64,000 nucleotides of DNA, from positions 26,348,165-26,412,164 of the forward strand of contig OX424564.1 of the NCBI GenBank assembly GCA_949152475.1, given 5' to 3'. The notes under the pieces were generated by a model, which did not search any database, was not told the DNA's origin, and was given only the letters and a program-made list of their open reading frames with translations. Below, one piece after another: positions 39,200-63,477 of this stretch. Within the stretch, counting starts at the first letter, position 1, and each line of letters starts with the position of its first letter. The position numbers and the translations under genes were made by a program. This stretch comes from Terebella lapidaria (lineage: Eukaryota; Annelida; Polychaeta; Terebellida; Terebellidae).

Positions 39200-39779
39200 G
39201 ACTGAATCATATCCGATGAGAAAGAAATAAGCAAGAAATACATCTTTTATTCACACGTTTATTCGATTCACATGCCATTTCAGCGTTCCAAGAGCATCAG
39301 CGTAAAACGTAAATTGGCGGCAAAAACGTCAAACATAATGGAATCGGGCCAAGAGAGCGACCATGTGCTTTTGTTTACCCTTCAAAATAATGACGTTTTC
39401 TTGAACTGGAAGCTGCCCGGGCAAGTGTGGAATTTACAGCCCGCCGGGCAGAAGTTTGTTATTGGAAGAATAGGCACAGCTATTGAAAAACAATATACAT
39501 AGAAATGGTGTATTTTCAGGTCTAAGTTTGTTGACAGTAATTTAAATTACGTACCTATTAATACATGGTTAATTTCATAACGGACCGGTTATCGGGACCA
39601 AGTGGCAAATAACGGACCGAGCGGCAGCGAGGTCTGTTATGACTCTGTTATGACAGACTCTGTTATGTTACGAGGTCTGTTATGTTATGTCTGTCCGTCT
39701 CCCTCCGAGACGGGAGGGTTAGTCAGGGGGAGGTGCATGATACAAGTACAACCATGGATCCACCCACCTCAGACTCCAT
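39200..39779. other. Intergenic, unassigned ORF
   Basis: A 76-codon frame at 39272-39502 is not recognised. TCTGTTATG is repeated several times at 39634-39690. Confidence 0.3.
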
Positions 39780-40376
39780 CCCCCACCCTATGCAGGTGTC
39801 CTAGGGCCATTGAGTACTCCACCCCCCCCCCCCCCTACCCCAGCCCATTCAGGTGTCCTGGGACTCAATCCCCCCACCCTACCCCACCCCATGCAGGTGT
39901 CCTGGGAATCCCCCCCCCCACCCCACTCCACCCCATGCAGGTGTCCTGGGACTCCACCCCCCACCCCACCCCACCCCACCCCATGCAGGTTTCCTAGGAC
40001 TCCACCCACCCCACCCCACTCCACCCCATGCAGGTGTCCTGGGACTCCACCCCCCACCCCACCCCACCCCACCCCATGCAGGTTTCCTAGGACTCCACCC
40101 ACCCCACCCCCACCCCACCCCACACCATGCAGGTGTCCTGGGACTCCACCCCCCACCCCACCCCACCCCACCCCATGCAGGTTTCCTAGGACTCCATCGC
40201 ACTCCCACCCCACCCCATGCAGGTGTCCTGGGACTCTCCCCCTGCCTCATAACCCAACCTCACCCCATGCAGGTGTCCTGGGACTCTATCGCACCCCCAC
40301 CCCACCCCACCCCATGCAGGTGTCCTGGGACTACCCCCTCCATCCCTACCCTACCCCATGCAGGTGTCCTGGGGGG
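39780..40376. repeat. C-rich minisatellite, about 60-bp units
   Basis: Units carry CCCCATGCAGGT(G/T)TCCT and GGGACTCCA or AGGACTCCA plus a variable (CCCCA)n tract. GTGTCCTGGG and TTTCCTAGG units alternate, making a dimeric period of about 120 bp. The ends carry long C and G homopolymers. ORFs here are artefacts. Confidence 0.9.
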
Positions 40377-40643
40377 GGGGGGATGGAGGGCGGGGCAGTC
40401 TGGATGGAGGACCAGTCATTGTGTACAGTCTTGTATTCAGGGTTATGTATTACTGCAGGGCATATATAAGGTGGTATTTTCACATCCATTAGTTCAAATA
40501 TATTCATATGTTTGTTATGATGCCAGATTCTGACAGATGCTTTATCTACCTGTTCATTATATGAGAAACCTTGAGTATCAATCATAATGTGACAAACAAA
40601 CTTGCCCAGGGTGACATAATTGAATTTTTTTGTGTAATTTCAG

Positions 40644-43600
40644 GTGATTCTGATTCCCTGTATGATGACGAGGATTATGAGCCACAGCAAGATGTGGAAA
40701 CAGATTCACATGATTCAGAGTCCTCAAGTTCAGGTATGCATGGTACATTTACTATTATAACACCACAGGTATTTGGTACTCTTACCCTGGATATACCAGT
40801 TATGTTCAGAATCATGTACATTGTACATATTATAGTATCTGCTTATACCTTGTCTTTGTTTTCTTTTTTTTCAATTTTTCACCATGCAGTCATAAATAAA
40901 TTTTATTCAGCACCTCCACCATTTTGGATTTGGGGAGCAAATGTAGGATAAAGTGCCACTCTGGGCAAATGTGGACATGGCCAATCAGTGCGATGGTCTG
41001 TGCACCATGTGACCAGTTTTGTAACAATCACAGCCTGTGTCTCGGGTTGTCCACATTCTTTTTACATGCAACCCAGATTTTGGGGTTTTTTTTTCAGGCG
41101 CGATGGCCGAGTGGTTGGTTACCAGGTTACATAAGAGCCATAACCGAACCAAGAGCCATAACCGGCATGGGTTCGATCAGACGATCATAATTGTTGGGGG
41201 ATTTTCTCCCTGCTTGCACACTTGGCAGTGTTCCCTTGACTCAAATGTCACGTAAAATGGCGGCCCTTAATTAACAAAATCGCGGTCCCTCTAAAAAATG
41301 TTGTGAAGGGCTGTGAAAGTCCCCTCGGAGAACGGGATGTACCCTGGTAGTGACCACTCTCAGGAGACCAAATTCCAAATTGTGAAACGCTTCGTTAATG
41401 TTGACAAAGTGCTATATACATGATATAAGGACCAATTATTGTTTTGAGCAAAATGTAGTCCCCAAATATCTTGTGTTGAACTGTACTTTAATGTCACCTG
41501 CTTTGTACTTATCATTTTTTGATTCTCCTTCCTACAGATGAGATGGCTGGTAGTAATCATGGTAATGCGCCTGATGTGCCGAAGGCATCAACCAAAAGTA
41601 AGGAGAGGAGTAAGTTATTTTCCATTTAGTTTTGTGATTCTATTTGAGTAGGATGCTGGGTGGGGTGCTCATAAATGTTGAGCAAAAGACAATATCAATT
41701 TTGTATGGATTTCAATGATGTTATGTTTGATTACTGGTACATTCCTGGTCATTCCATCTAACCAGACTGACTTTTCTGGAAGAATGAGTGAACTTCAGTC
41801 GATTTTGTCAAATCTTCAGGGAATTTTTAGCTATTTATCATCATCTTGCTCAGGGATCGGAAAAAATGACTTACATTATGTACATGTAGAGGGCAAGAAT
41901 TGTATAATATATCTAGCTGTGTTTAAATTTGTTTTGCAAAAACTTTCCTCATATTACATTTCTTAGCGGAATAAAGATCATGAAATACCCAAATTAGTCC
42001 TGTGATCCGATTAGGCCTAGTGCCCAACATTTAACATTGGAGTAGATTGCCAACTTTTTCAATTTTCAAGATAGAAGTATAAAATTTGGTGAAAAAATAT
42101 GTTTTTGTGCCAAATGGATGCATATAAAATTTCAAATTGATACGACCACCCTAAAAGAAGTTATCGCCAAAAATCATATGAGGTTTTGTGTTGAACTTGA
42201 GTATATGAGGTCCGCGCTTTCTGTCACATACCCTAGCATTGGAAGGCCTAATCGCGATCACTGCCACCTGGCGAATATGTCGCTGATTACTCATTTCGTA
42301 GTGCTGCCACCTGGCGAGTTGTAAGTTTTGGCAGCTGACAAGTTGATTTCGTTCGTTGTTTCAATCGAAATTTTGATCGTAAATTTGACTGTTCGAACTA
42401 AACGAGTCAATTTGAAAATTATTTTCTTGAATAATTTTTGGTGTTCGAATTATTAGAGTGTTCGAACTAATTGAATAAATACGGTACAACATTGTGTGAA
42501 AATCACTGAATCCATGTATTCTCAAAATAACATTTGTGTGAATCGTGGTAGTCCTAGAATCGAAAATAAATTTTCTTGGCAACACAAAGCAAATCCTTAT
42601 GGCAGGTAATAAGGTGCGGCCTTGATATATCACTACTTCTGTGACCAATCTTCAGATGTTTAGTGCCCAAGGATACCAGCATTATATAAGTACATTATGA
42701 TGAGCCTCTTTCATAACGCTCATCATGCAGAGCTCGAACTCGATGTCATGATTGCTGTATTGGTCCTAATAGTGGCACGCACCATAATAGTAGAGCACCC
42801 CCTTTCTCCCAAATTTTTTTTCAATTTTTGTGACCTTTCTGGTGGAATCTTAATGTTCCATTGCACACATAGCACATTTATTACTTGAATCATGATGAAG
42901 CAGATTTAACTATCCCTTCTCAAATTTGACCAAGTTTGACCTCAATTTTGCACGTGTTGCTGCAGGAGTTTTGGCTCATGGTGCTACCAACTCGGTACAT
43001 AATATGTGTAAGTTGGTCTATGTACACTGTATGCCTGTAAAACAGCTTAGGTCTGTATTGTGAGAACATACATGAAAGCGAATCATATTTTTGGTGTGAA
43101 AAAATATGATTTGTGATCTTGAATTTGAAGTGCCGGTAAACTACATCATGTTTGGTGCGACATGTATATGTACTTGATGTTGCAGTGCTCAATAATATCT
43201 ACTTTTTTGTTTGTTAGACAAGTGTACTCGCAGGAAGAAACGTTGCCCCGAATGTGACATATTTGTGTTCCACATTCCGCGCCATCTACGGGCCGTGCAC
43301 GACTATGACTTATCGTCAAGCACTCTGTACGGCAAGGACCGTTCCAAGTTAAAGTCATATCCCGTTCCTAGGTGCTCATTTAGATGTCAGAGACTCGACA
43401 AGCATTTGAGGCGAAAGCATAAAATGACAAAGGAAGAACAGAAACTCTATTCAAAAATTGCGAAGAGAATGGCAAAACAGGTACTTCTATTCATTATACA
43501 GTGATGAAAAAGCACAGTTTGTACATCTTATTATGTACATTAAATGTGCTAACCTGTATTGCGGATATGTAATCGAATAACCTATTGCTGTGACATTGTG

Positions 43601-46600
43601 TTTGTCGTCGTTGTCTGTTATCCTACTAGATTTTTATCTTTAATATTTACAGCCGAATCTTCTTGAAATTTTTTTACCGAAAAGTATTTCAAAAGAGAGG
43701 TTTTTTGGTTCTTTATATTTGCATTTTTTTTCCAAAATGGCAGCCATTTTTGATGAAAAACAGCCAATCTGTTGGCCCAGCTTTCATAAACTGTCTGATC
43801 AGTTTTTTTTTCTTCGAAAGAGTCCTTTCATTTACCTTTGTGATATTCATAGTAAGTTTCCTTTTCCTTGAATTGCCTGTCTGTGCATGGTGGCCATTTT
43901 GATTCTCGTTTGGAAATTGAGTTACTGACCATGCGTTTCCATGCAAAAACAAACTGTTGTACTCTTCTCAAAAACTATACCATCTGTTTTGAGATTTTTT
44001 TCTCTTCAGAACAAGCAATTAAGGGTTCTTGATGTTTTAGTAAGGATGGAGACTGGAGAGCCCTGAGATGCTCGTTAGTCCCATGAAGGTCTGCTATGCA
44101 CAAATTGACATATGGGGCTATACCACTCTTAAATAGGGCTAATGTTTGTATTACAAGCATATAGGAAGTCATATATGGTGCATCTATTGGTGACCTTCAA
44201 CTTGACCTCAGATAGCCTTGGAGGCTGACTCTCAGGGTCATGCCTGACATGTGAGTGGGCCTATAATGACAGAGTGCTTGTACTGAGCATGTGTTCGAAT
44301 TATGAACATATAGGAAGTCTTATAACTTACCTAATTGGTGGCCTTTGAATATGACCTCTGACGACCTTGAGTGCTCGATATCAAGGCTGAAGTGATATGT
44401 GTAAATTTACCTCTGAGGCTAAAACTCGTATTAAAAGCATATAGGAAGCTGTGTATTACAAATCAATCGAGGAACTTGGACTTGAGCTTCAGATGATTTT
44501 GAAGGCTGAATATCGGCCGCTGCAGACAAAATGGTTGAGCTTAACTGACGTTATGTATTGTATTACAGGCATATTTAGCATATAATGGTGTCTCTTTCGA
44601 TGAGCCTGAAGTTGATCAATGTGACCTTGACTGGTGAATTTCAAGGTTATACATGCAAAGGTTGAAACTAAAATTGAACGGTAACCTATCTTAGCTCTCA
44701 ATCTAATTTTTGTTGTTGTTAAATGACAGAACCGTCCACGGAAAAGGCGATCGCAGACTCGAGGTAAGCTTTTTATCGCAACTGTTCGGGCCTATTACTG
44801 TTCAGAGTGCATTTTTGTGGAGTCATACTTCGCATTGAAAAATGTTGTATGTTGTTCTGTCTCTCTGTTCGTGAAGCTGACCAGTCGGGACCAAGTAGCA
44901 GTGGGGATGTCAGATCAAAAACACCATGTCTGGAGGAAAAAGTGCTTAACAGTTTCTGTAGTTAACATCATAAAAATACCTGGCTTTTATTTTCAAGAAA
45001 GCATATGAGTCTCGCACTGAAAAATGTTGTATGTTGTTCTGTTTCTTCGTTTGTGAAGCTGACCAGTCGGGACCAAGTAGCAGTGGGGATGTCAGGTCAA
45101 AAACACCACGTCTGGAGGGAAAAAGTGCTTAACAGTTTCTGTAGTCAACATCATAAAAATACCTGGCTTTTATTTTCAAGAAAGCATATGAGTCTCGCAC
45201 TGAAAAATGTTGTATGTTGTTCTGTTTCTTTGTTTGTGAAGCTGACCAGTCGGGACCAAGTAGCAGTGGGGATGTCAGGTCAAAAACACCACGTCTGGAG
45301 GAAATAGGTGCTTAACAGTTTCTGTAGTCAACATCATAAAAATACCTGGCTTTTATTTTCAAGAAAGCATATGAGTCTCGCACTGAAAAATGTTGTATGT
45401 TGTTCTGTTTCTTTGTTTGTGAAGCTGACCAGTCGGGACCAAGTAGCAGTGGGGATGTCAGGTCAAAAACACCACGTCTGGAGGAAAAAGGTGCTTAACA
45501 GCTTCTGTAGTCAACACTGTAAAAAATATGGTATTTCAAAAAATCTGCTGATAAGTCATTTGGCAGTAACTTTGTGAATGATAATTCCTACATGTAAATT
45601 TTGCTTTGAACCTGATGTGTCTTGATTCACACTCTAACTGCAATCTTCAAATCAGGGATCTGCCGCTTGGAAAACAAAGGTACATGTATAAAGTTTCATT
45701 CATGCTTTGTTCATAGGCTTTCATTTATTGCAGATATTCAAGATAACAATTCTTCACCACAGACTTACTCCTCGCCACAGACATTGGCAACTATCGCCAA
45801 GTTGAAAGAAGGTAAAACATCAGAAATGATGTCTTTGGTGGATTCTTTTCAACTGCACAGTACAGAAAAACTTTTGTCTTGTTTTTCGATTAACTGACCT
45901 CTGGTCCGATATCTTATTGGCATGGTAATGCATAAGTCTGTGTATCTGTCCATCCATCGCCATTGTCCACATTTTGATATTTAATGTTTACCAGCGTTTT
46001 TATTTATTTATTTTTTTATTTTTGCGAAAAAAAGTACCCAAAATCAACCCCTGCGGCAAAACGCTTCCAACGTATATAGGATTTCTGATACGTAACATAT
46101 TTTGGTGACCTCGAACAGCATATGAATCGAGAGAGAGCTCAAAATGACTGTATGATGAGCATATCGGAAATCAGATGGTCACTGTATTATATGACTACAT
46201 TTTGCAGAGCGAATGAAGTGTTTTCTTACAGGAAGTCTTATTTCTCGGGGTCCATTTACATACTGTCAGAATGGAGCATGAGGAATACAGATTAGTTTTT
46301 ACAGACATGGAAATCTTATTCTAGAGAGGTCCTGTTTTACAGGGAGCACTGTGTGGTCGATCTTTAGGTTGTGTTGAAATTGACCTCGGATGACCTTGAG
46401 TATCAAATATCGAGGTGACATGTCTGACCTGAAAGTAAATATTGGCCTTCACAGACAATAGGCTTGTAGATAGAGTTTGAAAATGTTTTATGAGCTTGCA
46501 AAGCTTTTTTGTGTGACCTTGAAATTAGCCCCCAAGAATACCATTGTGTTCCCCACAAAATGGTCTTAAAAAACCTACATAGTAAATTTCTTGGTAACCT

Positions 46601-49600
46601 TTCTAGCCCTTGTGTTAACTTCAATCACTTTTTGTATGATTAAAGACCCGTCAATATTGTCTTTCAGAGGCGAAACATATCTCATTCATAAAATGGCTGC
46701 AGTCCCTCTCCGGTGGTCGAAAGACCCTGAAAGATTCAAAGCAAATAAGTGCTATGGTTTTGGCTGTCCAAAGTGCTGTTGATCCCAATTTTCAGAAAAG
46801 ATTTGGGGAATACAACAGATGCATTGAAACAGATTTCATTGAGATTAACCAGAGCAAACTTTCAGGCCTCCACCATCAAAAATCATCTACTCAGCCTTAA
46901 AAAGTTTGGGAATTTCTTGGTACTAAATGGTTATCCAGACATCAGTAAATCTGAGCAGGAAACTTTGGAGAGACAAATAGATCTCTGGAACACTGCGCTG
47001 ACAAAGGACATCAAAGTTCGCACAGTTGAGAAAGGAGCCAAAGACAAAGGTTCTGTATTATAGATAACAGTTGTTTTAACTGTTTTTACTGAAGTTATAG
47101 TTTTCGTACAATTACAGAAGCATGCTGGTTCCTGAAGCATAAAACATGTGGATGAAGCTTAACATTTGTTTCTTTTTCACAACATGATAATATCTGCTAA
47201 TATTTTTTTTCAACAGCTGAGATAATATCTCCTGAGCTCATAAAGTCATATGACACCTGCGCAAATGCCAGAAAGGCTGTGAGTTATTTAGGAAATTTAC
47301 CTGCTCTCACGGTTGAATCCCATACCAGGGTTCGTAATTATCTGATAGTTCAGTTGGTAGTTAGCAACGCAACAAGGCCAGGGGGTATTGTCAACCTGAC
47401 AGTTCAACAAGTAAAGGATGCGGTCTTCATATCAAATGAAGGAATGCACGTTGTGAAGGTTAATTTGTGGTTACATGAACATTCTTGTTCCTTTGTTGTT
47501 CATTGTTGTGTTTATCTCTTTATGTCCGTGCTATACATGTATGATACTATTTTCTAATCATAAAGTACTTGCTTGTACATGGCATAAGTTCCCATATATA
47601 CATGTACATTTATCCCCCTAAAATATTAATATCCATGATGTCGTATTGAAATGCTATTCGACTTGGTAACAAATTTGATGTGAATATAACTTTGATGTGA
47701 ATATAATTTCTGGAAAAAAATTCAGTGTTTGTTTTTGGCAGATCCCTATGCACAAGACTGCCACAACCCATAATGCACTGGAGCTGGGGATGAGCAGAGT
47801 ACTCTACAGCATGGTATTGTCATATATTGCGTTTCGGAGTGAGATTGTTCAAGGAAACTCATCAGAAGACAAGGTACATTGAGAGGAACCTTCTCTTAGG
47901 CAAACACACATAGCCATGAACCGTAATTCTATACAGTGGATCCTGTGTTAAAGACCACCTGGTTTGAGAGACCACCCTGTGTTTTAAGACCGCTACACTT
48001 GGTCCCAAGTGGCCTTTTATCATGTAAATGAACCTGTCATGAGAGACCACCTGTCATTTGAGACCACCTTTTTGGGGTCCCTTGGGTGGTCTCAAAACAC
48101 AGGATCCACTGTACCTATATAATCAAATTGAGAGGTGAAAATACACAACAGAGTAGTAACATTTACCGTACATTAGGTATCTAGTTACTTTTTCCTTTAG
48201 GTTTTCGTGTCGTGGACTGGGAAACCCCTCCAGCAGTCAGAGGTGGCAAACATTTTGACAGTCGAGTTATGTTCAGTGGGATACAAGTTTCGAGCAACCT
48301 GCACCAAACTGCGCAAGCTGACTGTTACTCTGGTGTGTATAGTTTGCAATAAAATTCAAAGCTGCTTTAGGTTATCTCGGTTCAATTGCATTCGAAGACA
48401 TACTGTTTTACATCTTTTCAGATATCAAGCCATCTTGGCGAAGAGGCGTCAAATCTGGCCAAATTTATGAAACACAGGGATGCTACTCAGAAGAGAATAT
48501 ATGATCTGAGTGTGAGTGAGCAGAGATCAGCTCGCATGTCGAATATCGTGGCACAGAATGATGATGAGAGGCGACTTCATCTCGGAGCAAGATGTACAGA
48601 GTGCCAGTGAAGGTGAATATATTACATACTTTCTTGATCGACTTTTCTCCTGCCATTCACAACAAACTTTAAAAGCAGGAGCTCTTGGTAACCATCAGTG
48701 TTGATTTTGAACAGTGAAAAAAAATAGAACATACAAGTTTTTTTTCAACACATCCAGATGCCAACAGAAGAGAAGTTGTTGCTCCACATGAGAATCAACG
48801 TCAGCAGCCCAGAAGTGTTAGGGAGGAAACTCGGTCACCAGTTTTTTGTGAAGGTATTGTACAGCCTTTAAGTTACCGGTAAACATAACTTCATAGTTGT
48901 CATTGTTGATCCCTCCTGTTGAGTATGCAATTTCATTTTGCACACATATATGCAGATAACAGAACAAGTGATTCGCACCAGTCTGGGAATGCTGCACCAA
49001 GTGATTATTTAGTCTTGCATGCAGGTATAATATGGTTACTTCAATTAGTGTTTAGCAAATTGTCACTGAATAATCATCCATTCATCAATTCAGATAGTAA
49101 TTATATGAATGACTATATGTCGATGGTAAAAATCAATAACAAAAAATAAAATATGAACATCTTCTGTAATAATTGTAGCATTTTTCTGGTTAGTAGAGGG
49201 AAGAAGCACAACTCGATTCTGTGAAGCTGAAGACCAACAAGGTGCATGTTCCTCTGCCTGTCCTACAGGTATGGAGTTTTTGAATGCACATATATAATAC
49301 AATATCATTGTGGGCTAAATGTCAGGGTAGCTAAGTATACCAATAAACGAGAAAGTAACATAAATTTTATTTCCATTTTCTACCAGCAGATGGGAGGACT
49401 GACGAAGACCAGTCGAATGATGCTGGAGATGCTCGTCGTTCCCCTTTCTGTCTTGGGGGTAGAGTGTTCAATTTATCAATCTCCAGCACCTATTTGTGAT
49501 AACTTGTTTTGATAAACATATCGGTGTATTTTTTCCTGTAATCTCTTTTTTCGGCGTAAGTTTTTCTTTGGTGTTAGAAGATGTGGCACTAGTTCCTATC

Positions 49601-50443
49601 TCGATTTTTTTTCTGTAAATTTTCCTGGATTTTTTATTGAATAATTTTTTTTTCTTTTGTTCACCAGTAATCTACAAAACACTTGTTCGAATGTTTTTCC
49701 TGAAATTGGTATTTTTGTTTTCTACAGCCACCAATGTTACCAATGCTGTAATGCTCATGAGCAAGCAAGGGCAGCTGGCCAAATTCATGGACGAAGCCAA
49801 AGGTTATGACCTAGACGGATGGTCCGAGGCACTCCAAGACCCTATCGCCAAGGAGAATGTTGGGTGTGGCCGGTACCTTAATGAGGATGCTGTCATGGAG
49901 GTTGTGATTGGGCAACTGGTCCACGAGAAACTAACACAGAGGGAAAAACTTCGAACTTGTCAACTTGTTATACATCACCTCGGTATGTGAACATGCTGTG
50001 AGAAGTTGTTCTTTTTTTCTTCCATTGTTTTGCAGGAATCTTCATGCTCATATATTTTTTTCAGTAAGAGTACTGAGGAACAAGGAGGGTTCTTGTTCGC
50101 AGAAGTCCTCCAGCCATGCTGATTCTACGGTACGCATATTTGGATTACAACAGTGTCACTATATTTTATTCTTTATATCACCAAGTTAAACTACTATACT
50201 GCTCCCTTTCGATGATTGGTTTGGATAAGAACAACTATTATAAAGCATGGCGTTCATATGCCGTTTGACTTTGCCATCCCTTTTTCATTCTGAACTTGTG
50301 CATTCTGTTCAAAATGACATGTCACGGTTATTGCTCTCCAGGTGCCCACCAAGAAGTCACGGAGAATGTACCCTGTGGAATTAAAAGAAAAGCTTATTCA
50401 TGTAAAACGTAGCTTCGGCAAAACGAAAATTACGAAAATGTGA
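40644..50443 (+). CDS. Intron-rich zinc-finger tyrosine recombinase (Crypton-like), 21 exons seen
   Basis: Exons, all bounded by AG and GT: 40644-40733, 41538-41609, 43218-43480, 44730-44763, 44877-44941, 45059-45124, 45242-45307, 45425-45490, 45734-45811, 46668-47049, 47217-47458, 47742-47873, 48201-48332, 48422-48612, 48758-48853, 48956-49024, 49194-49268, 49390-49458, 49728-49982, 50065-50129, 50342-50443 (TGA). Junction phases agree except where three exons differ by one base (44877, 46668 and 48422). Product order: acidic Ser-rich start, C2H2 finger, basic linker, repeated exon, recombinase core-binding and catalytic domains, Ser/Gln-rich linkers, then a C-terminal helical region. Such enzymes break and rejoin DNA through a tyrosine. 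Domesticated Crypton relatives are known in animals. The start codon lies upstream and was not found. It may be a host gene, an old Crypton with acquired introns, or a decaying copy. Confidence 0.75.
41098..41185 (+). mobile_element. tRNA-derived SINE fragment
   Basis: TGGCCGAGTGG at 41104-41114 is a Leu/Ser-tRNA-type A box and GGTTCGATCA at 41170-41179 is a B-box-like match. The arms do not fold into a proper tRNA and AGAGCCATAACCG is duplicated inside, so it is not a working tRNA gene. It lies in intron 1 of the recombinase gene. Confidence 0.55.
43218..43480 (+). CDS. Exon 3: C2H2-type zinc-finger exon
   Basis: KCTRRKKRCPECDIFVF leads into a finger C-x2-C-x9-H-x4-H (CPEC..RHLRAVH). About 45 residues on, a second, compressed pair C-x3-C-x5-H-x4-H is seen (CSFRC..KHLRRKH). 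The exon ends KIAKRMAKQ in phase 0. I infer DNA binding N-terminal to the recombinase. Confidence 0.75.
43577..44713 (+). repeat. 'GGTAACC' dispersed element in intron 3
   Basis: GAATAACCTATTGCTGTGAC start, TTTTTGATGAAAAACAGCC core, a diverged series of TTGACCT-containing units, end GGTAACCTATCTTAGCTCTC. Confidence 0.75.
44820..45530 (+). repeat. Four tandem copies of a 183-bp exon-containing unit
   Basis: CTGACCAGTCGGGACC recurs at 44877, 45059, 45242 and 45425. Each unit has a T-rich tract, acceptor GTGAAG, an exon translating to ADQSGPSSSGDVRSKTPRLE, and a donor before GTGCTTAAC. Copies 2-4 are 66 bp and phase 1-1. Copy 1 is 65 bp and would break the frame. Confidence 0.85.
45893..46617 (+). 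repeat. 'GGTAACC' dispersed element in intron 9
   Basis: Starts ACTGACCTCTGGTCCGATAT, ends GGTAACCTTTCTAGCCCTTG. Abuts the core-binding-domain exon. Confidence 0.75.
46668..47049 (+). CDS. Exon 10: recombinase core-binding (SAM-like) domain
   Basis: Opens AKHISFIKWLQSLSGGRKTL and later reads LKQISLRLTRANFQASTIKN and LLSLKKFGNFLVLNGY, the helical arm-binding domain pattern of tyrosine recombinases. These two halves are in different frames. The exon is 382 bp, one base over the 2+3n+1 expected from its neighbours, so there is one extra base near 46780-46800. Confidence 0.75.
47217..47458 (+). CDS. Exon 11: catalytic domain, first arginine
   Basis: AEIISPELIKSYDTCANARK to GMHVVK. The block LIVQLVVSNATRPGGIVNLT fits the box I region, with Arg of ATRPG as the first catalytic arginine (cf. 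the G.R..E/G..L pattern). Ends in phase 0. Confidence 0.75.
47742..47873 (+). CDS. Exon 12: catalytic lysine segment
   Basis: IPMHKTATTHNALELGMSRV. HKT sits where the beta-hairpin lysine of tyrosine recombinases is expected. Phase 0-0, 44 codons. Confidence 0.65.
47932..48113. mobile_element. 182-bp MITE in intron 12
   Basis: Perfect 18-bp terminal inverted repeats, TACAGTGGATCCTGTGTT and inverse. The inside has repeated GAGACCACC words. TA at both edges is consistent with a Tc1/mariner-type target. Confidence 0.85.
48201..48332 (+). CDS. Exon 13: box II, second arginine
   Basis: VFVSWTGKPLQQSEVANILT, then CTKLRKLTVTL. TKLRKLTVT corresponds to the HxLRHTxAT box. The Arg is kept and the usual His is replaced by Thr. 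Phase 0-0, 44 codons. Confidence 0.7.
48422..48612 (+). CDS. Exon 14: H/W and nucleophile tyrosine
   Basis: LAKFMKHRDATQKRIYDLSV fits the C-terminal recombinase block: His of MKHR and Tyr of RIYDL as the proposed nucleophile. The exon is 191 bp, one base longer than the phase chain allows. Read in one frame it stops at TGA just before the donor. One frame over, FISEQDVQSASEG leads into the donor in the expected phase 1. The extra base lies near 48570-48585. Confidence 0.7.
49728..49982 (+). CDS. Exon 19: C-terminal helical region
   Basis: Largest downstream exon, open for 84 codons: ATNVTNAVMLMSKQGQLAKF through WSEALQDPIAKENVGCGRYL to LVIHHLG. No recognised domain. The predicted helices and amphipathic spacing could be an interaction domain. 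Phase 1-1. Confidence 0.65.
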
Positions 50444-51876
50444 TTGTCCAGTATGTTCGCAGGAATGCGATATTTCACAAGGAAATGTCCACGCATCACA
50501 ATTTACCATTGTATGACAAAAAACTGCTACAAAAAATCACAGATGCCGTTCGCAATGCATGAATTCAAACTGTTAACCGAAAGAAGGAATTATTTGGTTT
50601 CTGTTCCAAGTCTGTTTGTATTGCTTGTGATGTATACATGCATAAACTCACTGAATGATAACATGAGTGGTAACCAACTCGGCACATGTCAGATTTCTTT
50701 ATGAACTGTGTTATGAATAGTCACAAATAAGTAGTTACGGTGTGCGTGTTTAAGTGAAACCTTGTACATGTTTCAGATTTAAAGTTTGTTCAAATATGTA
50801 GTGTATTATTTGAATGTTAAAGGAACAATTTCGTTCATAACAAATGCTTATGATGTTCACATACGAGATTCCATTTGATTCCATTTAACTGTGTGAGAAC
50901 TGTGTTGTTAGAATAACCAGTATCGGGTGTATAAATGAAGCAATCTGTAGGCTTCAGACGTGAATTAAAAGTTAATATTCTTTATTGTGAAATAAGGACC
51001 ATGTTTTTTGTAATGTTTATTACAATGTTTTGTCTTGTTCGAAAATTTGGTGAAAGTTGAAAAAATAAATTTATAGACAAATATTATGTTCATTCAATTG
51101 TGATGAACAACGATATCAATTAAGTAATTGACATAAAACACTTATACACACTTATACACTGATAACACCTATGAACACACTTATTACTTATGTAATAAAA
51201 TTTAGTATCCTAATCTTTTATTACTATTTCTGATGACATTGCTGCTGTTGAGCATTATGATCAATATTCTCTCAGACTTCCAACAGCCCTCGCCTACATG
51301 TACCGTCCACGAGTGAGAGCACACAAGGGCTGGTATACATGTAGATATTTCAAAAGCATTGCATAACTCAGTACGCATGATACAATGGATATATGATGCA
51401 GAACACAGTTCAAGTAACCATTTAGTTCAATATGCACCAATGATTTCAAATATTGTACAAAAATGATGCAGCCACCTATCAATCGATGCATATCCAGAGG
51501 CAGAAAACCTGTCATGATGTATCTTTCATAAGGAACAGACAGACACGAAACAGCCGATTGATTGGATTTATTGTATGCAATATAAAATACCGATATTAAA
51601 GGCAACACGTCAATTGACATAAAATACAGAGACATATCAAATGACGTTAAAATAATACAGAATAACACCAGAAAGCAGTAACCGGCTATTTGCATGCATG
51701 TATTTCACAATTATGGCCTATTTCAATAAGGAGAAGACTTATTATGTTACAAATATTATGGATAAATTATGTACTGGTATAGTTCCCTGGTACATGTTGA
51801 TGTTTAATCATTGCAATGTATGATCATATGCTCTCCAGATAGAGGTTTTATTCACGAACTCACTCGTCATCTGTCG
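50444..51876. other. 3' UTR and intergenic
   Basis: Follows the recombinase stop codon. Candidate poly(A) signals are ATTAAA near 50965 and AATAAA at 51064-51069. A 133-codon hydrophobic minus-strand frame at 51294-51695 was not accepted as a gene. Confidence 0.45.
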
Positions 51877-52510
51877 TTTGTCGTCCGCCTGAGTCTGTGA
51901 CATTTTTTTGGCCTGGTGAATTTTCCTATGAAATTGTCAAAACATACCTTGGCCCACTATTTATAGACGTTTTTGGAAATTCTTCTTTTGATTGATTCGG
52001 CTGTTTCGTGGCCACTGTGAATTCACTGCCAAAAATGGCCAATTTGACACAATTTCAAATTTTAAAAAAAATTAAATAATTGATTTGACATTCATAATTT
52101 GCCATTCATAATTTGCATAAAGATGGTAGACATTGAATCGCTCGAACAGCCTGAAATGTAGGCCCAAAATGGGCCGACATGCACAAATTGGCCTCTGGGG
52201 ACAGAACACTTGCAAAGTATAGGTTTGTATTTTGTATGTTTATATTGTTTGAACATATAGGAGGCCATATATGGTGCATCATTTGGCGAAGAAATTGACC
52301 TCGAATGACCTTGAGTGGTGAACCCCAAGGTTTCTCCTGACATGAAATGTGTAAATTTGCCTATGTTGACACTAATCTTGTAGATAAAGCCCAGGAATGT
52401 ATTATGAGCATATATGTATAGTAATTTACGTATGATAGATCTGTTGGTGAACTCAAACTTGACCTCGAATGATATTGAGCGGTGAAACTCCACCGAGCGA
52501 ATTACGTAAA
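51877..52510 (+). repeat. 'GGTAACC' element, degenerate copy
   Basis: CGTCATCTGTCGTTTGTCGT, ATGGCCAATTTGACAC, ATATAGGAGGCCATATATGG and TTGACCTCGAATGACCTTGA units are recognisable. Both ends are worn. Confidence 0.6.
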
Positions 52511-54399
52511 CCTAAAAAAGAACGACGTTATGACGTTTTTATGCAGTAAATTTCAATCGGGGACATTATGATATACAGGAGGGCGGGAAAGGCAAATTAA
52601 ACGCTGATGAAAGGGCCACATGCCTATACTTAGCGATGCCTTGCAGATGCGTTATCTGCATTATTAACTCGTAAACAATATAAGCACATACTCTTTCTGC
52701 AATATAAATATGAAATTTACCAATATATTATTTTCATCGTTATATAAATAAAACTTTATCATGGCTATTGCAGATTTGCCGTGTATGCTCTCATTTGTGT
52801 TGTGTCGCCTATGATTTTTGTCCACGTGTTCAGTTTTTTTTAAATGAATCCTTCGGCAGTGAAAGAATAATTTGATAAAATAGAACATATGTTGCTTGAA
52901 TTATTGATTTATATTTTTATTAGGACACAACGGTACATCAATCATGAACACATACGGCATCGATGTAGTTGAAATCTTCAACCTCTCCATGTGGTAGGAG
53001 AATATTCCCGTGAAGGTTACTTCGTGATGCACTTGAAGTAGAAATCATTAGGGTCTTTATGGTTACTTTTACACACACATCTGAATAGTTGTAGTTTATC
53101 ATTTTCATTTGTGATGAATACCACGGAGGGTCAAAGTTACGTTCATTCCGATCGTCCTTTCAGCATTAAAGAGTAGTACGAATACAGGCCATTATCTCGG
53201 AAACTAAGTCGGTGACCCCTTTTTTTATTTCTGTTTTGACTCTATACATTATTCTCGACACTTTGTAAATATTTTAAGAAATTCTATCGAGCGGTTTTTT
53301 CGTAGCGTTAAAAAACAGTGCGAAAGAGGCAGCGAAAATAAACGTTATTTGGCCCGTTCATTTACACTCAAGTTGTGGTTCATCCCTGGGACATTATGTG
53401 CCACGGTTGCCTAACTTATCAGTAATTTTTACTCCAAATAAAACATAATCATTACTACACTAACAACACCAGTCTGTGATTATCTGCATACGCAATTCCA
53501 AATAGTTTCACTTCCCCGTTACAATATTGACATGCATGTCACACAGGGTCGAAATTACGTGCACTTTTAGTGAGTTCGGCTGCGTTCAAGTACATCACAA
53601 GATCAGGCGGTTATCTCAGAAACTAATTTTTAAAAAAAGAAACATTTAGATTTGGACTCCACATATGTTGATATGGGGTACGGCAAAGTTTAAGAGAAAT
53701 CTATCGATGAAAAATTTTTCGTCGATATAGTACCAATTGTCTTTAACAAGAACTCAACATGAACACATTTAACATAAATTGGCCTCTGCGACCAAGTGAT
53801 GACATATGAACCTTATGGTTGTATCAGGGTCATATGCATGCAGGGAATCATATGTGCTGGGTCAGTTGATGACCGGGAACTTGACCTCAGACTACTTCCA
53901 GTATTATTATAGCTCAATATCATGCTAAGTTTTACCACGATTTCTACCATTCGGTACATAACATGATATTGGTTTTAGACTGCATTTCTGTGCAACATTT
54001 CTTATAATTGGACCTTTTCAACACTTTCAATCGAGACCTATCACTCTGCTGCAGATATTATACATTTAATTTCAAACATATATTTTTTAGAGCCAACACA
54101 GCAATTAATTTGGCAAGTTTTGCTTTCAGAAATGTTTTTGTGTTTTCCGCACTCAATTTATATGGGCTTGAGCTTTCATTACTACCCAGTAGCTTATGTA
54201 TTTAGTGTTTCATATATCCACAAATGAGAACCCTACTTCACTGGAGCGTCAAATATATACACTTTCGAAGACGCATCTGATATTTTGTTATGCCAATCCT
54301 GTAAACATGTATCTGAATATCTCATGTATATTCATGGCGCTTCCTTTGTCTTTGGTGTGCTCCAAAATGACTTCTCGTTTCCACATCTGAAAAACGAGA
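52511..54399. other. Intergenic, includes a diverged direct repeat
   Basis: Segments 53090-53340 and 53505-53760 share an order of words (AGGGTC.AA.TTACGT, GG..TTATCTC.GAAACTAA, AA.TCTATCGA) and look like an old tandem duplication. No genes were supported. Confidence 0.4.
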
Positions 54400-54419
54400 A
54401 GGTATTCTACGACACAAGC

Positions 54420-57400
54420 GAGGAATACTGGAGTGGTACAAGGGAAGTGCGGTATGTACAGGGTAGATGGGAAGTGTACGGAGGAGAGCGCAAGATATAC
54501 AGGATAGATGGAAGGGGTACAGGGTGAGTGCGGCATGTACATTGTACATGGAAGTTGTATGGGATAAGAGGAAGGTGTAAAATGTAGTTGGAAGGTGTAC
54601 AGGGTAGGCACGGCATCTACATGGTATATGGAAGGTTTATAGGGTAGGTGGAAGGAGTATAGGGTAGGTGGAAGGTGTACAAGGTAGGTACGGCATCTAC
54701 ATGGTATATAGAAGGTCTATAGGGTAGGTGGAAGGAGTACAGGGAAGGTGGAAATGTGTACAGGGTAGGTAGAAGGTGTACAGGGTAGGCACGGCATCTA
54801 CATGGTATATAGAAGGTTAATAGGGTAGGTGGAAGGAGTACAGGGTAGGTGGAAGGTGTACAGGGTAGGTAGAAGGTGTACAGGGTAGGCATGGCATCTA
54901 CATGGTATATTGAAGGTTTATAGGGTAGGTGGAAAGTGTACATTGTAGGTGGAAGGTGTACAGGGTAGACACGGCATCTACATGGTAAATAGAAGGTTAA
55001 TAGGGTAGGTGGAAGGAGTACAGGGTAGGTGGAAGGTGTACAGGGTAGGTAGAAGGTGTACAGGGTAGGCATGGCATCTACATGGTATATTGAAGGTTTA
55101 TAGGGTAGGTGGAAAGTGTACATTGTAGGTGGAAGGTGTACAGAAGGTACATGGTATATAGAAGGTTAATAGGGTAGGTGGAAGGTGTACAGGGTAGGCA
55201 CGGCATCTACATGGTATATTGAAGGTTTATAGGGTAGGTGGAAAGTGTACATTGTAGGTGGAAGGTGTACAGGGTAGACACGGCATATACATGGTATATA
55301 GAAGGTTTATAGGGTAGGTGGAAAGTGTACAGGGTAGTTGGAAGGTGTACAGGGTAGGCACGGCATCTACATGGTATATTGAAGGTTTATAGGGTAGGTG
55401 GAAAATGTACACGGTAGGTGGAAGGTGTACAGGGTAGGCACGGCATCTACATGGTATATGGAAGGTTTATAGGGTAGGTGTAAAGTGTACAGGGTAGGTG
55501 GACGGTGTACATGGTAGGTGCGGTATGTACATGATATATTGAAGGTGTGTGGGGTAGGTGGACGGCTTACAGGGTAGATGCGGAATGTACATGGTATATT
55601 GAAGGTGTGTAGGTGCGGGATGTACATGGTATATTGAAGGTGTGTAGGGTAGGTGGACGGTTTACAGGGTAGGTGCGGGATGTACATGGTATATTGAAGG
55701 TGTGTAGGGTAGGTGGACGGTTTACAGGGTATGTGCGGGATGTACATGGTATATTGAAGGTGTGTAGGGTAGGTGGACGGTTTACAGGGTAGGTGCGGGA
55801 TGTAAATGGTATATTGAAGGTGTGTAGGGTAGGTGGACAGTGTACAGGGTAGGTGGGGGATGTACGTGGTATATTGAAGGTGTGTAGGGTAGGTGGACGG
55901 TGTACAGGTTGTGTGCGGGATGTACATGGTATATTGAAGGTGTGTAGGGTAGGTGGACGGTGTACACGGTAGGTGCGGGATGTAAATGTTATATTGAAGG
56001 TGTGTACGGTAGGTGGACGGTGTACAGGGTAGGTGCGGGATATACATGGTACATTAAAGGTGTGTAGGGTAAGTGGACGGTTTACAGGGTAGGTGCGGGA
56101 TGTACATGGTTTATTGAAGGTGTGTGGGGGTAGGTGGACGGCTTACAGGGTAGGTGCGGGATGTACATGGTATATTGAAGGTGTGTGGGGGTAGGTGGAC
56201 GGCTTACAGGGTAGGTGCGGGATGTACGTGGTATATTGAAGGTGTGTAGGGTAGGTGGACGGTGTACAGGGTAGGTGCGGGATGTACATGGTATATTGAA
56301 GGTGTGTAGGATAGATGGACGGTGTACAGGGTAGGTGAGGGATGTACGTGGTATATTGAAGGTGTGTAAGGTAGGTGGACGGTGTACAGGTTATGTGCGG
56401 GATGTACATGGTATATTGAAGGTGTGTAGGGTAGGTGGACGGTGTACACGGTAGGTGCGGGATGTACATGGTATATTGAAGGTGTGTAGGGTAGGTGGAC
56501 GGCTTACAGGGTAGGTGCGAGATGTACATGGTATATTGAAGGTGTGTAGGGTAGGTGGACGGTTTACAGGGTAGGTGCGGGATGTACATGGTATATTGAA
56601 GGTGTGTAGGGTAGGTGGACGGTGTACAGGGTAGGTGCGGGATGTACATGGTATATTGAAGGTGTGTGGGGTAGGTGGACGGCTTACAGGGTAGGTGCGG
56701 GATGTACATGGTATATTGAAGGTGTGTAGGGTAGGTGGATGGTGTACAGGGTAGGTGCGGGATGTAAATGGTATATTGAAGGTGTGTAGGGTAGGTGGAC
56801 GGTGTACAGGGTAGGTGCGGGATGTAAATGGTATATTGAAGGTGTGTAGGGTAGGTGGACGGTGTACAGGGTAGGTGCGGGATGTACATGGTATATTAAA
56901 GGTGTGTAGGGTAAGTGGACCTTTTACAGGGTAGATGCGGGATGTACATGGTATATTGAAGGTGTGTGGGGTAGGTGGACGGTTACAGGGTAGGTGCAGG
57001 ATGTACATGGTATACTGAAGGTGTGTGGGGGTAGGTGGACGGCTTACAGGGTAGGTGCGGGATGTACATGGTATATTGAAGGTGTGTAGGGTAGGTGGAC
57101 GGCTTACAGGGTAGGTGCGGGATGTACATGGTATATTGAAGGTGTGTAGGGTAGGTGGACGGCTTACAGGGTAGGTGCGGGATGTACATGGTATATTGAA
57201 GGTGTGTAGGGTAGGTGGACGGCTTACAGGGTAGGTGCGGGATGTACATGGTTTATTGAAGGTGTGTAGGGTAGGTGGACGGCTTACAGGGTAGGTGCGG
57301 GATGTACATGGTATATTGAAGGTGTGTAGGGTAAGTGGAAGATTTACAGGGTAGATGCGGGATGTACATGGTATATTGAAGGTGTGTAGGGTACTAGGTG

Positions 57401-60400
57401 GACGGCTTACAGGGTAGGTGCGGGATGTACATGGCATATTGAAGGTGTGTGGGGTAGTTGGACGGCTTACAGGGTAGGTGTGGGATGTACATGGTATATT
57501 GAAGGTGTGTAGGGTAGGTGGACGGTTTACAGGGTAGGTGCCGGATGTACGTGGTATATTGAAGGTGTGTAGGGTAGGTGGACGGTGTACAGGGTAGGTG
57601 CGGGATGTACATGGTATATTGAAGGTGTGTAGGATAGATGGACGGTGTACAGGGTAGGTGAGGGATGTACGTGGTATATTGAAGGTGTGTGAGGTAGGTG
57701 GACGGTGTACAGGTTATGTGCGGGATGTACATGGTATATTGAAGGTGTGTAGGGTAGGTGGACGGTGTACACGGTAGGTGCGGGATGTACATGGTATATT
57801 GAAGGTGTGTAGGGTAGGAGGACGGCTTACAGGGTAGGTGCGAGATGTACATGGTATATTGAAGGTGTGTAGGGTAGGTGGACGGTTTACAGGGTAGGTG
57901 CGGGATGTACATGGTATATTGAAGGTGTGTAGGGTAGGTGGACGGTGTACAGGGTAGGTGCGGGATGTACATGGTATATTGAAGGTGTGTGGGGTAGGTG
58001 GACGGCTTACAGGGTAGGTGCGGGATGTACATGGTATATTGAAGGTGTGTAGGGTAGGTGGATGGTGTACAGGGTAGGTGCGGGATGTAAATGGTATATT
58101 GAAGGTGTGTAGGGTAGGTGGACGGTGTACAGGGTAGGTGCGGGATGTAAATGGTATATTGAAGGTGTGTAGGGTAGGTGGACGGTGTACAGGGTAGGTG
58201 CGGGATGTACATGGTATATTAAAGGTGTGTAGGGTAAGTGGACCTTTTACAGGGTAGATGCGGGATGTACATGGTATATTGAAGGTGTGTGGGGTAGGTG
58301 GACGGTTACAGGGTAGGTGCAGGATGTACATGGTATACTGAAGGTGTGTGGGGGTAGGTGGACGACTTACAGGGTAGGTGCGGGATGTACATGGTATATT
58401 GAAGGTGTGTAGGGTAGGTGGACGGCTTACAGGGTAGGTGCGGGATGTACATGGTATATTGAAGGTGTGTAGGGTAGGTGGACGGCTTACAGGGTAGGTG
58501 CGGGATGTACATGGTATATTGAAGGTGTGTAGGGTAGGTGGACGGCTTACAGGGTAGGTGCGGGATGTACATGGTTTATTGAAGGTGTGTAGGGTAGGTG
58601 GACGGCTTACAGGGTAGGTGCGGGATGTACATGGTATATTGAAGGTGTGTAGGGTAAGTGGAAGATTTACAGGGTAGATGCGGGATGTACATGGTATATT
58701 GAAGGTGTGTAGGGTACTAGGTGGACGGCTTACAGGGTAGGTGCGGGATGTACATGGCATATTGAAGGTGTGTGGGGTAGTTGGACGGCTTACAGGGTAG
58801 GTGTGGGATGTACATGGTATATTGAAGGTGTGTAGGGTAGGTGGACGGTTTACAGGGTAGGTGCCGGATGTACGTGGTATATTGAAGGTGTGCAGGGTAG
58901 GTGGACGGTGTACAGGGTAGGTGCGGGATGTACATGGTATATTGAAGGTGTGTAGGATAGATGGACGGTGTACAGGGTAGGTGAGGGATGTACGTGGTAT
59001 ATTGAAGGTGTGTAAGGTAGGTGGACGGTGTACAGGTTATGTGCGGGATGTACATGGTATATTGAAGGTGTGTAGGGTAGGTGGACGGTGTACACGGTAG
59101 GTGCGGGATGTACATGGTATATTGAAGGTGTGTAGGGTAGGTGGACGGCTTACAGGGTAGGTGCGAGATGTACATGGTATATTGAAGGTGTGTAGAGTAG
59201 GTGGACGGTTTACAGGGTAGGTGCGGGATGTACATGGTATATTGAAGGTGTGTAGGGTAGGTGGACGGTGTACAGGGTAGGTGCGGGATGTACATGGTAT
59301 ATTGAAGGTGTGTGGGGTAGGTGGACGGCTTACAGGGTAGGTGCGGGATGTACATGGTATATTGAAGGTGTGTAGGGTAGGTGGATGGTGTACAGGGTAG
59401 GTGCGGGATGTAAATGGTATATTGAAGGTGTGTAGGGTAGGTGGACGGTGTACAGGGTAGGTGCGGGATGTACACGGTATATTAAAGGTGTGTAGGGTAA
59501 GTGGACCTTTTACAGGGTAGATGCGGGATGTACATGGTATATTGAAGGTGTGTGGGGGTAGGTGGACGGCTTACAGGGTAGGTGCAGGATGTACATGGTA
59601 TACTGAAGGTGTGTGGGGGTAGGTGGACGGCTTACAGGGTAGGTGCGGGATGTACATGGTATATTGAAGGTGTGTAGGGTAGGTGGACGGCTTACAGGGT
59701 AGGTGCGGGATATACATGGTATATTGAAGGTGTGTAGGGTAGGTGGACGGCTTACAGGGTAGGTGCGGGATGTACATGGTATATTGAAGGTGTGTAGGGT
59801 AAGTGGACGGCTTACAGGGTAGATGCGGGATGTACATGGTATATTGAAGGTGTGTGGGGTAGGTGGACGGTTTACAGGGTAGGTGCGGGATGTACATGGC
59901 ATATTGAAGGTGTGTGGGGTAGGTGGACGGCTTACAGGGTAGGTGCGGGATGTACATGGTATATTGAAGGTGTGTAGGGTAGGTGGACGGTTCACAGGGT
60001 AGGTGCGGGATGTACGTGGTATATTGAAGGTGTGTAGGGTAGGTGGACGGCTTACAGGGTAGGTGCGGGATGTACATGGTTTATTGAAGGTGTGTAGGGT
60101 AGGTGGACGGCTTACAGGGTAGGTGCGGGATGTACATGGTATATTGAAGGTGTGTAGGGTAAGTGGAAGATTTACAGGGTAGATGCGGGATGTACATGGT
60201 ATATTGAAGGTGTGTAGGGTACTAGGTGGACGGCTTACAGGGTAGGTGCGGGATGTACATGGCATATTGAAGGTGTGTGGGGTAGTTGGACGGCTTACAG
60301 GGTAGGTGTGGGATGTACATGGTATATTGAAGGTGTGTAGGGTAGGTGGACGGTTTACAGGGTAGGTGCCGGATGTACGTGGTATATTGAAGGTGTGTAG

Positions 60401-63110: not shown

Positions 63111-63164
63111 TGTATAGAGAGGAGAGAGGAAGATTCTGCTGGGGACACAGTTACAAAGTATATA

Positions 63165-63425
63165 TATATGGAGAAGTTACACAGTCCATATACGGAGAAG
63201 TTACACAGTCCATATAGGGAGCAGTCGTTTTTTTCCGAGAGTTACAAAGTCCAAGTTCGGGGTTACATGGGCCATTTTACATTGTTACCAAGTCCAAAAA
63301 AATGTTACATAGTCCAATATGTTGGTTACAGTGTCCATAGTGGGTTACACCGTCCATATTCACAAGGTTACGGAGTCCATTCTGAAAGTTACACAGTCCA
63401 AAGGTTGGGTACATAGTCCACTTTT
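63165..63425. repeat. GTTACANAGTCC tandem array, about 21-bp units
   Basis: About eleven degenerate units begin GTTAC(A/C)(C/A/T)AGTCCA and are 20-27 bp apart, directly after the large minisatellite. Confidence 0.8.
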
Positions 63426-63447
63426 GGGTGCCAATAAAGAAGGTCCG

Positions 63448-63477
63448 CATCATCATCATCATCATCATCATCATCAT
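63448..63477. repeat. (CAT)10 microsatellite
   Basis: Ten uninterrupted CAT triplets. Confidence 0.95.

Follow-up and report, generated by a model that had tools for sequence, protein, structure and literature searches.

Is an intron-rich gene for a tyrosine recombinase, found in an animal genome, a host gene that was captured from a transposon, or does it belong to an element that moves? The question is raised by a stretch of 64,000 nucleotides of the annelid Terebella lapidaria (assembly GCA_949152475.1, contig OX424564.1, positions 26,348,165-26,412,164; the window), in which an initial annotation, made from the sequence alone, had described a zinc-finger tyrosine recombinase gene of 21 exons and proposed that it is a captured Crypton. 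The observations behind this proposal were largely right and are confirmed in part; the interpretation was half right and is supported in part. We find that the approximate interval 39707-63443 of the window is one degraded copy of a roughly 25-kb mobile element with about ten places in the genome, and that this recombinase element is young, multi-copy and intron-rich, with unusually readable ends. The interpretation that we favour, with a probability of roughly 0.8 and on the basis of sequence comparison, is that of a DNA transposon whose only recognised gene encodes a tyrosine recombinase with more than 20 exons and two N-terminal fingers, and which would move as a circle by means of its own recombinase.

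Copies of the element in the genome

The genome used for comparison comprises 761.6 Mb in 438 contigs, and the window sits on contig C11. A genome search with an intron piece of the gene (44000-44500) gave eight full-length matches at 95-100% on six contigs, the window's own counted, and a ninth locus on C6 that was matched as two pieces; for exon 11, nine near-identical genome copies were found. The total comes to ten element loci, on C3, C5 (three loci), C6, C9, C11 (the window), C13, C14 and C207. Comparison of the 40-kb regions around five sister copies revealed that gene, introns and satellite are common to the complete copies, and that the C5b copy has lost a large internal part. The closest pair, C13a and C5c, is 99.95% identical, introns included: its 21,342 aligned bases show 4 mismatches and 2 gap openings.

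Segmental duplications, or duplicates that arose in the assembly rather than by transposition, would also account for such long near-identical stretches, and one copy (C5c) adjoins an assembly gap on its left side while another lies on an unplaced contig. Every complete copy, however, has the same exact ends between different flanks and an empty target could be recovered, as described below, and we regard this explanation as very improbable.

Element ends, hexamers and target sites

Searches with the left 406 bp and the right 371 bp of the element located six left and nine right ends. The element starts with CCTTCTTTATGCG and ends with CCAATAAAGAAGG, and it is bounded by a perfect 10-bp terminal inverted repeat, CCTTCTTTAT...ATAAAGAAGG. 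Adjoining the terminal repeat is a hexamer, of the form TCNNCA at 13 of the 15 ends. The left and right hexamers are TCATCA/TCCGCA in both C13 and C5d, TCCGCA/TCCCCC in C6, TCACCA/TCATCA in C14, TCATCA/TCATCA in C3 and TCAACA/TCAACA in C207, that is, they are unequal in four of the six complete copies; the copies represented by a right end only have TCCGCA (the window and C5b) or TCTCCC (C5c). The hexamer TCCGCA recurs at five of the 15 ends, unrelated loci among them. ATCATC is found within 30 bp of 14 of the 15 ends and GATGAT of none, which indicates that the orientation of insertion is constant; at the fifteenth end, the right end of C13, ATC is followed by ATT repeats. As a background, 250 of the 38,920 positions surveyed in the initial 39 kb of the window are followed by ATCATC within 30 bp, and no position has it both upstream and downstream.

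A perfect terminal repeat, and hexamers that in C3 and C207 are identical at both ends, would also be displayed by a cut-and-paste transposon in which a DDE transposase acts on the 10-bp inverted repeat and duplicates 6 bp of the target, with the tyrosine recombinase as cargo. The unequal hexamers of the other four complete copies speak against such an enzyme, because it would leave equal duplications, as does the presence of one and the same hexamer at unrelated loci. In addition, the ten longest of the 24 frames (≥48 codons) between the gene and the satellite had no Pfam match at E ≤ 0.1 and hence no transposase domain, a scan that did not extend to the introns, the left 3 kb, the satellite or the 14 shorter frames. 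The DDE transposon was rejected as the principal interpretation on account of the unequal hexamers, and we consider it unlikely. By analogy, the recurrence of TCCGCA together with the unequal hexamers may reflect a coupling sequence that is derived from the donor, as in Tn916.

When the flanks of the C207 copy were joined with a single TCAACA, a dispersed repeat matched across the join at 87-93% in all 40 places scored (the best 40 of 2,390 candidates). Four empty examples were aligned, of which those on C15, C3 and C14 are gapless and that on C12 has three extra bases in a variable ATC stretch. Since the joined flanks recover the empty target, the C207 copy, about 25.6 kb in length, entered cleanly; the empty site is an empty relative of the target and not an empty allele, and the left flank used alone as a probe shows only that this flank is a repeat. 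The landing site of C207 is a dispersed repeat with an ATC-rich stretch (L041 for the left flank, L053-L056), and by eye the flanks of C3 resemble the same repeat family.

Exon structure and open frame

Between 40644 and 50443 we rebuilt 21 segments, with AG before all 21 and GT after 20, the last one ending in a stop codon. The consistent borders described in the initial annotation hold, and in the 17 exons scored (1-4 and 9-21) they are preserved in the sisters wherever the exon is complete, C5b being truncated within exon 1. Exons 5-8, the four tandem ones that this scoring left out, are units of one 183-bp tandem repeat, of which one sister (C3a) has five, and their usual donor, GTGCTT, is weak. 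The phases, reported as almost perfectly matching, are indeed mostly phase 1, but three segments break the frame inside the window copy: exon 10, exon 14 and the last exon each hold a private frame-breaking indel, which is present in none of the four sisters that hold these exons. A hidden small intron or a programmed shift was considered as the source of these breaks and was ruled out, as the four sister copies are open there.

The gene also extends beyond the interval first assigned to it at both sides. The segment at 40644 is entered in phase 1 and therefore cannot open the coding sequence; all three sisters examined (C13a, C14a and C3a) have, in their left part, an upstream ATG exon (MAESDCA, phase 1) that joins in phase, and in sisters the last exon extends as far as the position equivalent to 50561. 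The window copy is dead and 5'-truncated, without the left part of the element and hence without the ATG exon. The joined frame was read in C13a, C3a and C14a, and in the first two the natural exons, joined unchanged with the optional tandem exons left out, form a stretch of 826 codons that no stop interrupts. All element copies examined retain their introns, which argues against a spliced RNA intermediate.

The intron-rich structure and the added N- and C-terminal regions had suggested a captured, domesticated Crypton gene. A captured single gene was rejected in view of the copies, which are about ten in number, near-identical and located at different sites, of their common, defined ends and of the empty site, which attests a clean insertion into ATC-rich repeats; the window copy is moreover broken and the product has no DUF3504 match. 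Capture is in our view exceedingly unlikely, and the case cautions against taking every intron-rich recombinase gene for a domesticated one.

The recombinase and its relatives

The predicted product of the gene has two N-terminal Cys/His fingers and a tyrosine-recombinase domain of the pattern R-K-(T)-R-H-Y. The Pfam model Phage_integrase was matched by the window core (with an X at one break) at E 5.8e-5 and 23.4 bits and by the whole C13a product at E 1.7e-4 and 21.8 bits, the curated cut-off being 27.1 bits. The integrase family phrog_216 was matched at E 2.2e-4, and NCBIfam gave weak matches to XerC/XerA, far under their cut-offs. The Pfam finger model had no match in the window core, sequence searches of the PDB gave none the first time and four weak matches the second (best E 0.15, none named recombinase), and a scan of viral contigs found no relative.

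Spliced exons 11-14, used as a query against the same genome, identified two uninterrupted relatives: C10:389138-389650, which is free of stops, matches query positions 29-201 at E 2.2e-12 and spans three junctions, and C8:28300504-28300983, which matches query positions 2-163 at E 1.0e-15 and spans two. The spliced C13a product could be aligned with the frame on C10 (L051) over residues 55-552, fingers included, with 24% identity and an E-value that holds for these two sequences only. The predicted splicing is supported by this homology, and the finger, core-binding and catalytic parts that had been described are present. The putative catalytic Arg, Lys, Arg, His and Tyr, earlier assigned by eye, are placed at the same residues by alignment with the relatives, L051 among them (motifs in Table 1), and the His of H-x-x-R is Thr in the element and His in L051. 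More distant relatives lie in separate pieces no more than 2.5 kb apart (C14:20410365-20413126, C17:26628082 and C5:19160832-19163364) and are perhaps further intron-bearing recombinase families.

Proposed movement of the element

We propose that the host splices the transcript, giving an enzyme of about 830-910 residues that would bind the 10-bp arms of both ends and excise the element as a circle. The joint of this circle would read ATAAAGAAGG-hexamer-CCTTCTTTAT, which has the layout of a tyrosine-recombinase site, and strand exchange with an ATC-rich target, perhaps located by the fingers, could take place at a short core of 4 to 6 bp. A new insertion may carry the hexamer of the donor at one end and that of the target at the other, and copy number would grow via host replication. 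As an enzyme gene with more than 20 introns still spreads, movement should depend on host splicing.

Several observations weigh against this proposal. At the ends, two of the six complete copies have equal hexamers, the 10-bp arms are shorter than the textbook 11-13 bp, and at the right ends of C3 (L046) and C14 (L049) extra ATC units precede CGC or TGC and then the microsatellite, which the model does not explain. In the gene, the joined frame of C14a is interrupted by a single stop, which lies in the finger exon, and despite a lower divergence between sisters in exons than elsewhere (0.16-0.28% versus 0.40-0.66%; Fisher p 0.049, 0.099 and 0.008, for pairs that are not independent), purifying selection is not supported because nonsynonymous changes are not depleted, the few changes giving synonymous/nonsynonymous codons of 1/6, 1/3 and 0/5. 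In the protein, both Phage_integrase matches fall below the curated cut-off, the predicted model of L051 has a mean predicted local distance difference test (pLDDT) score of 39 and is unusable, and the replacement of His by Thr in H-x-x-R may lower activity.

The element could also be a non-autonomous passenger, its ends being served by another tyrosine recombinase of the genome while the intron-rich gene is carried as cargo and perhaps serves the host. Candidates for such a helper are at hand, as further finger-type recombinase relatives in the genome have long open frames, and the DUF3504 matches described below are present as well. Set against this, the tyrosine recombinase is the only recognised gene of the element and is open in two sisters, and the left 406 bp and right 371 bp match strongly only at element copies, other right-end matches being short and weak. 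We judge a passenger to be quite unlikely and retain the reading in which the element would be moved by its own recombinase. From its near-identical copies one can read exact ends, a candidate 26-bp site and an empty target, which makes excision and integration of an animal tyrosine-recombinase element directly testable.

Relation to known elements

CryptonA recombinases match DUF3504 (PMC3212892), and animal Cryptons are described as having no terminal repeats and no C-terminal domain that Kojima and Jurka could find (PMC3212892). On the model of prokaryotic elements, Cryptons have been proposed to be excised as circles, and a recombination site is expected to have inverted repeats of 11-13 bp and a spacer of 6-8 bp (PMC3212892). 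The window core and the C13a product had no match to DUF3504 (PF12012) at E ≤ 1, while in the same genome at least 149 DUF3504 matches (the best 150 of 229 candidates scored) provided a positive control; none of the ten element loci was among the DUF3504 matches listed, as compared by eye. CryptonA was ruled out by the missing DUF3504 match, and the 10-bp terminal inverted repeat of the element is likewise at variance with the CryptonA trait of having no terminal repeats. The element resembles CryptonA and CryptonI in being a DNA element that encodes a tyrosine recombinase (PMC3212892), but differs from them in having no DUF3504, and in its terminal inverted repeats, more than 20 exons, fingers, C-terminal region and length of about 25 kb. 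The name Crypton fails in the strict sense, but a Crypton-like life style (recombinase only, circular intermediate) would fit, and the element probably works like a Crypton. For animal Cryptons, neither the ends nor the recombination sites are well defined, and the element supplies exact ends.

The DUF3504 matches of the genome, of CryptonA type and in many cases in stop-free frames of 300-430 codons, form a separate, abundant Crypton population.

In Tn916, six end bases derive from the donor and are known as the coupling sequence (PMC11838328); the size given for the Tn916 family is 18 kb (PMC6431247). The likeness lies in unequal hexamers of which one recurs, from which we infer similarity of mechanism without claiming kinship, whereas the Tn916 family is bacterial and conjugative, with AT-rich targets and no introns (PMC11838328). 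Recombinases of endogenous nimaviruses of crustaceans have N-terminal parts of the C2H2 zinc-binding and SAM-like kinds, as here, and likewise insert into microsatellite-type repeats; in two of the viruses the recombinase gene is also multi-exon (PMC10871703). They belong, however, to large viral genomes, and the telomere-type group targets (TAACC)n (PMC10871703). This comparison concerns architecture and target type only, and no viral gene was recognised in the parts of the element that were scanned, which do not cover it throughout. The Starships of fungi are likewise large eukaryotic elements classed by their tyrosine recombinase and carry many accessory genes, whereas the element described here is an animal one and consists mainly of introns and satellites. 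DIRS and Ngaro elements also have a tyrosine recombinase and likewise no DUF3504 match (PMC3212892), but are retrotransposons.

The odds seem to us about even that the element represents a separate superfamily of animal DNA transposons, with finger-bearing, intron-rich tyrosine recombinases that would mobilise elements of at least 25 kb as circles into ATC-rich microsatellite targets, by way of inverted arms of 10 bp and a coupling hexamer from the donor, with host splicing needed in every round, and which is possibly a non-viral counterpart of the nimavirus recombinases. In a literature search that included neither subscription papers nor Repbase, we recognised no report of an intron-rich, inverted-repeat tyrosine-recombinase transposon in an animal.

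Features of the window copy

The features of the window copy are listed in Table 1.

Table 1. Features of the element copy in the window, with positions counted from the first nucleotide of the window.
Feature	Position	Strand	Basis
Element copy, 5'-truncated at ~39707, right end at 63443	39707..63443	+	Sister-copy comparison
C-rich minisatellite, 48/93-bp units, 5' element part	39816..40373	.	Tandem Repeats Finder; also in C13a, C14a, C3a
Exon 1 of the initial annotation, second coding exon; acidic stretch	40644..40733	+	Splice borders, sisters
Exon 2	41538..41609	+	Splice borders, sisters
Exon 3, two Cys/His finger-like motifs (CPEC..H..H and CSFRC..H..H)	43218..43480	+	Aligned with L051 fingers
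Exon 4, basic linker	44730..44763	+	Splice borders, sisters
183-bp tandem repeat carrying optional exons 5-8	44830..45516	+	Repeat search; 5 units in C3a
Exons 5-8	44877-44941, 45059-45124, 45242-45307, 45425-45490	+	Splice borders
Exon 9	45734..45811	+	Splice borders, sisters
Exon 10, core-binding part; frame broken in window copy	46668..47049	+	Open in C13a
Exon 11, catalytic Arg (ATRPG)	47217..47458	+	Borders, sisters, relatives
Exon 12, catalytic Lys (HKT)	47742..47873	+	Borders, sisters, relatives
Exon 13, catalytic Arg (TKLRK), T-x-x-R replacing H-x-x-R	48201..48332	+	Borders, sisters, relatives
Exon 14, His (MKHR) and nucleophile Tyr (RIYDL); window frame breaks downstream of both	48422..48612	+	Borders, relatives
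Exons 15-18, low-complexity linker	48758-48853, 48956-49024, 49197-49268, 49390-49458	+	Borders, sisters
Exons 19 and 20, C-terminal region without Pfam match	49728-49982, 50065-50129	+	Borders, sisters
Last exon; window frame broken, sisters open to equivalent of 50561	50342..50561	+	Sister comparison
G-rich satellite, 60/180-bp units, within element	54455..63102	+	Repeat search
Right inverted-repeat arm ATAAAGAAGG; left arm CCTTCTTTAT gone from window copy	63434..63443	+	End comparison
Boundary hexamer TCCGCA, candidate donor-derived coupling sequence	63444..63449	+	Identical hexamer at 5/15 ends
(CAT)10 microsatellite, right flank of insertion	63448..63477	+	Repeat search

All matches listed for the satellite at 54455-63102 lie in element copies (at least 333 matches; the best 38 of 206 candidates scored). 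It is strongly G-skewed, and the minus strand of some copies has very long, chance-like open frames, which result from a repeat unit that is a multiple of three.

Two further insertions are private to the window copy. One, of 546 bp, lies in the intron after exon 2 (41939-42484); the other, of 174 bp (47935-48108), has inverted ends, CAGTGGATCCTGTGTT and AACACAGGATCCACTG, between TA dinucleotides and by eye resembles a small derivative of the Tc1/mariner type.

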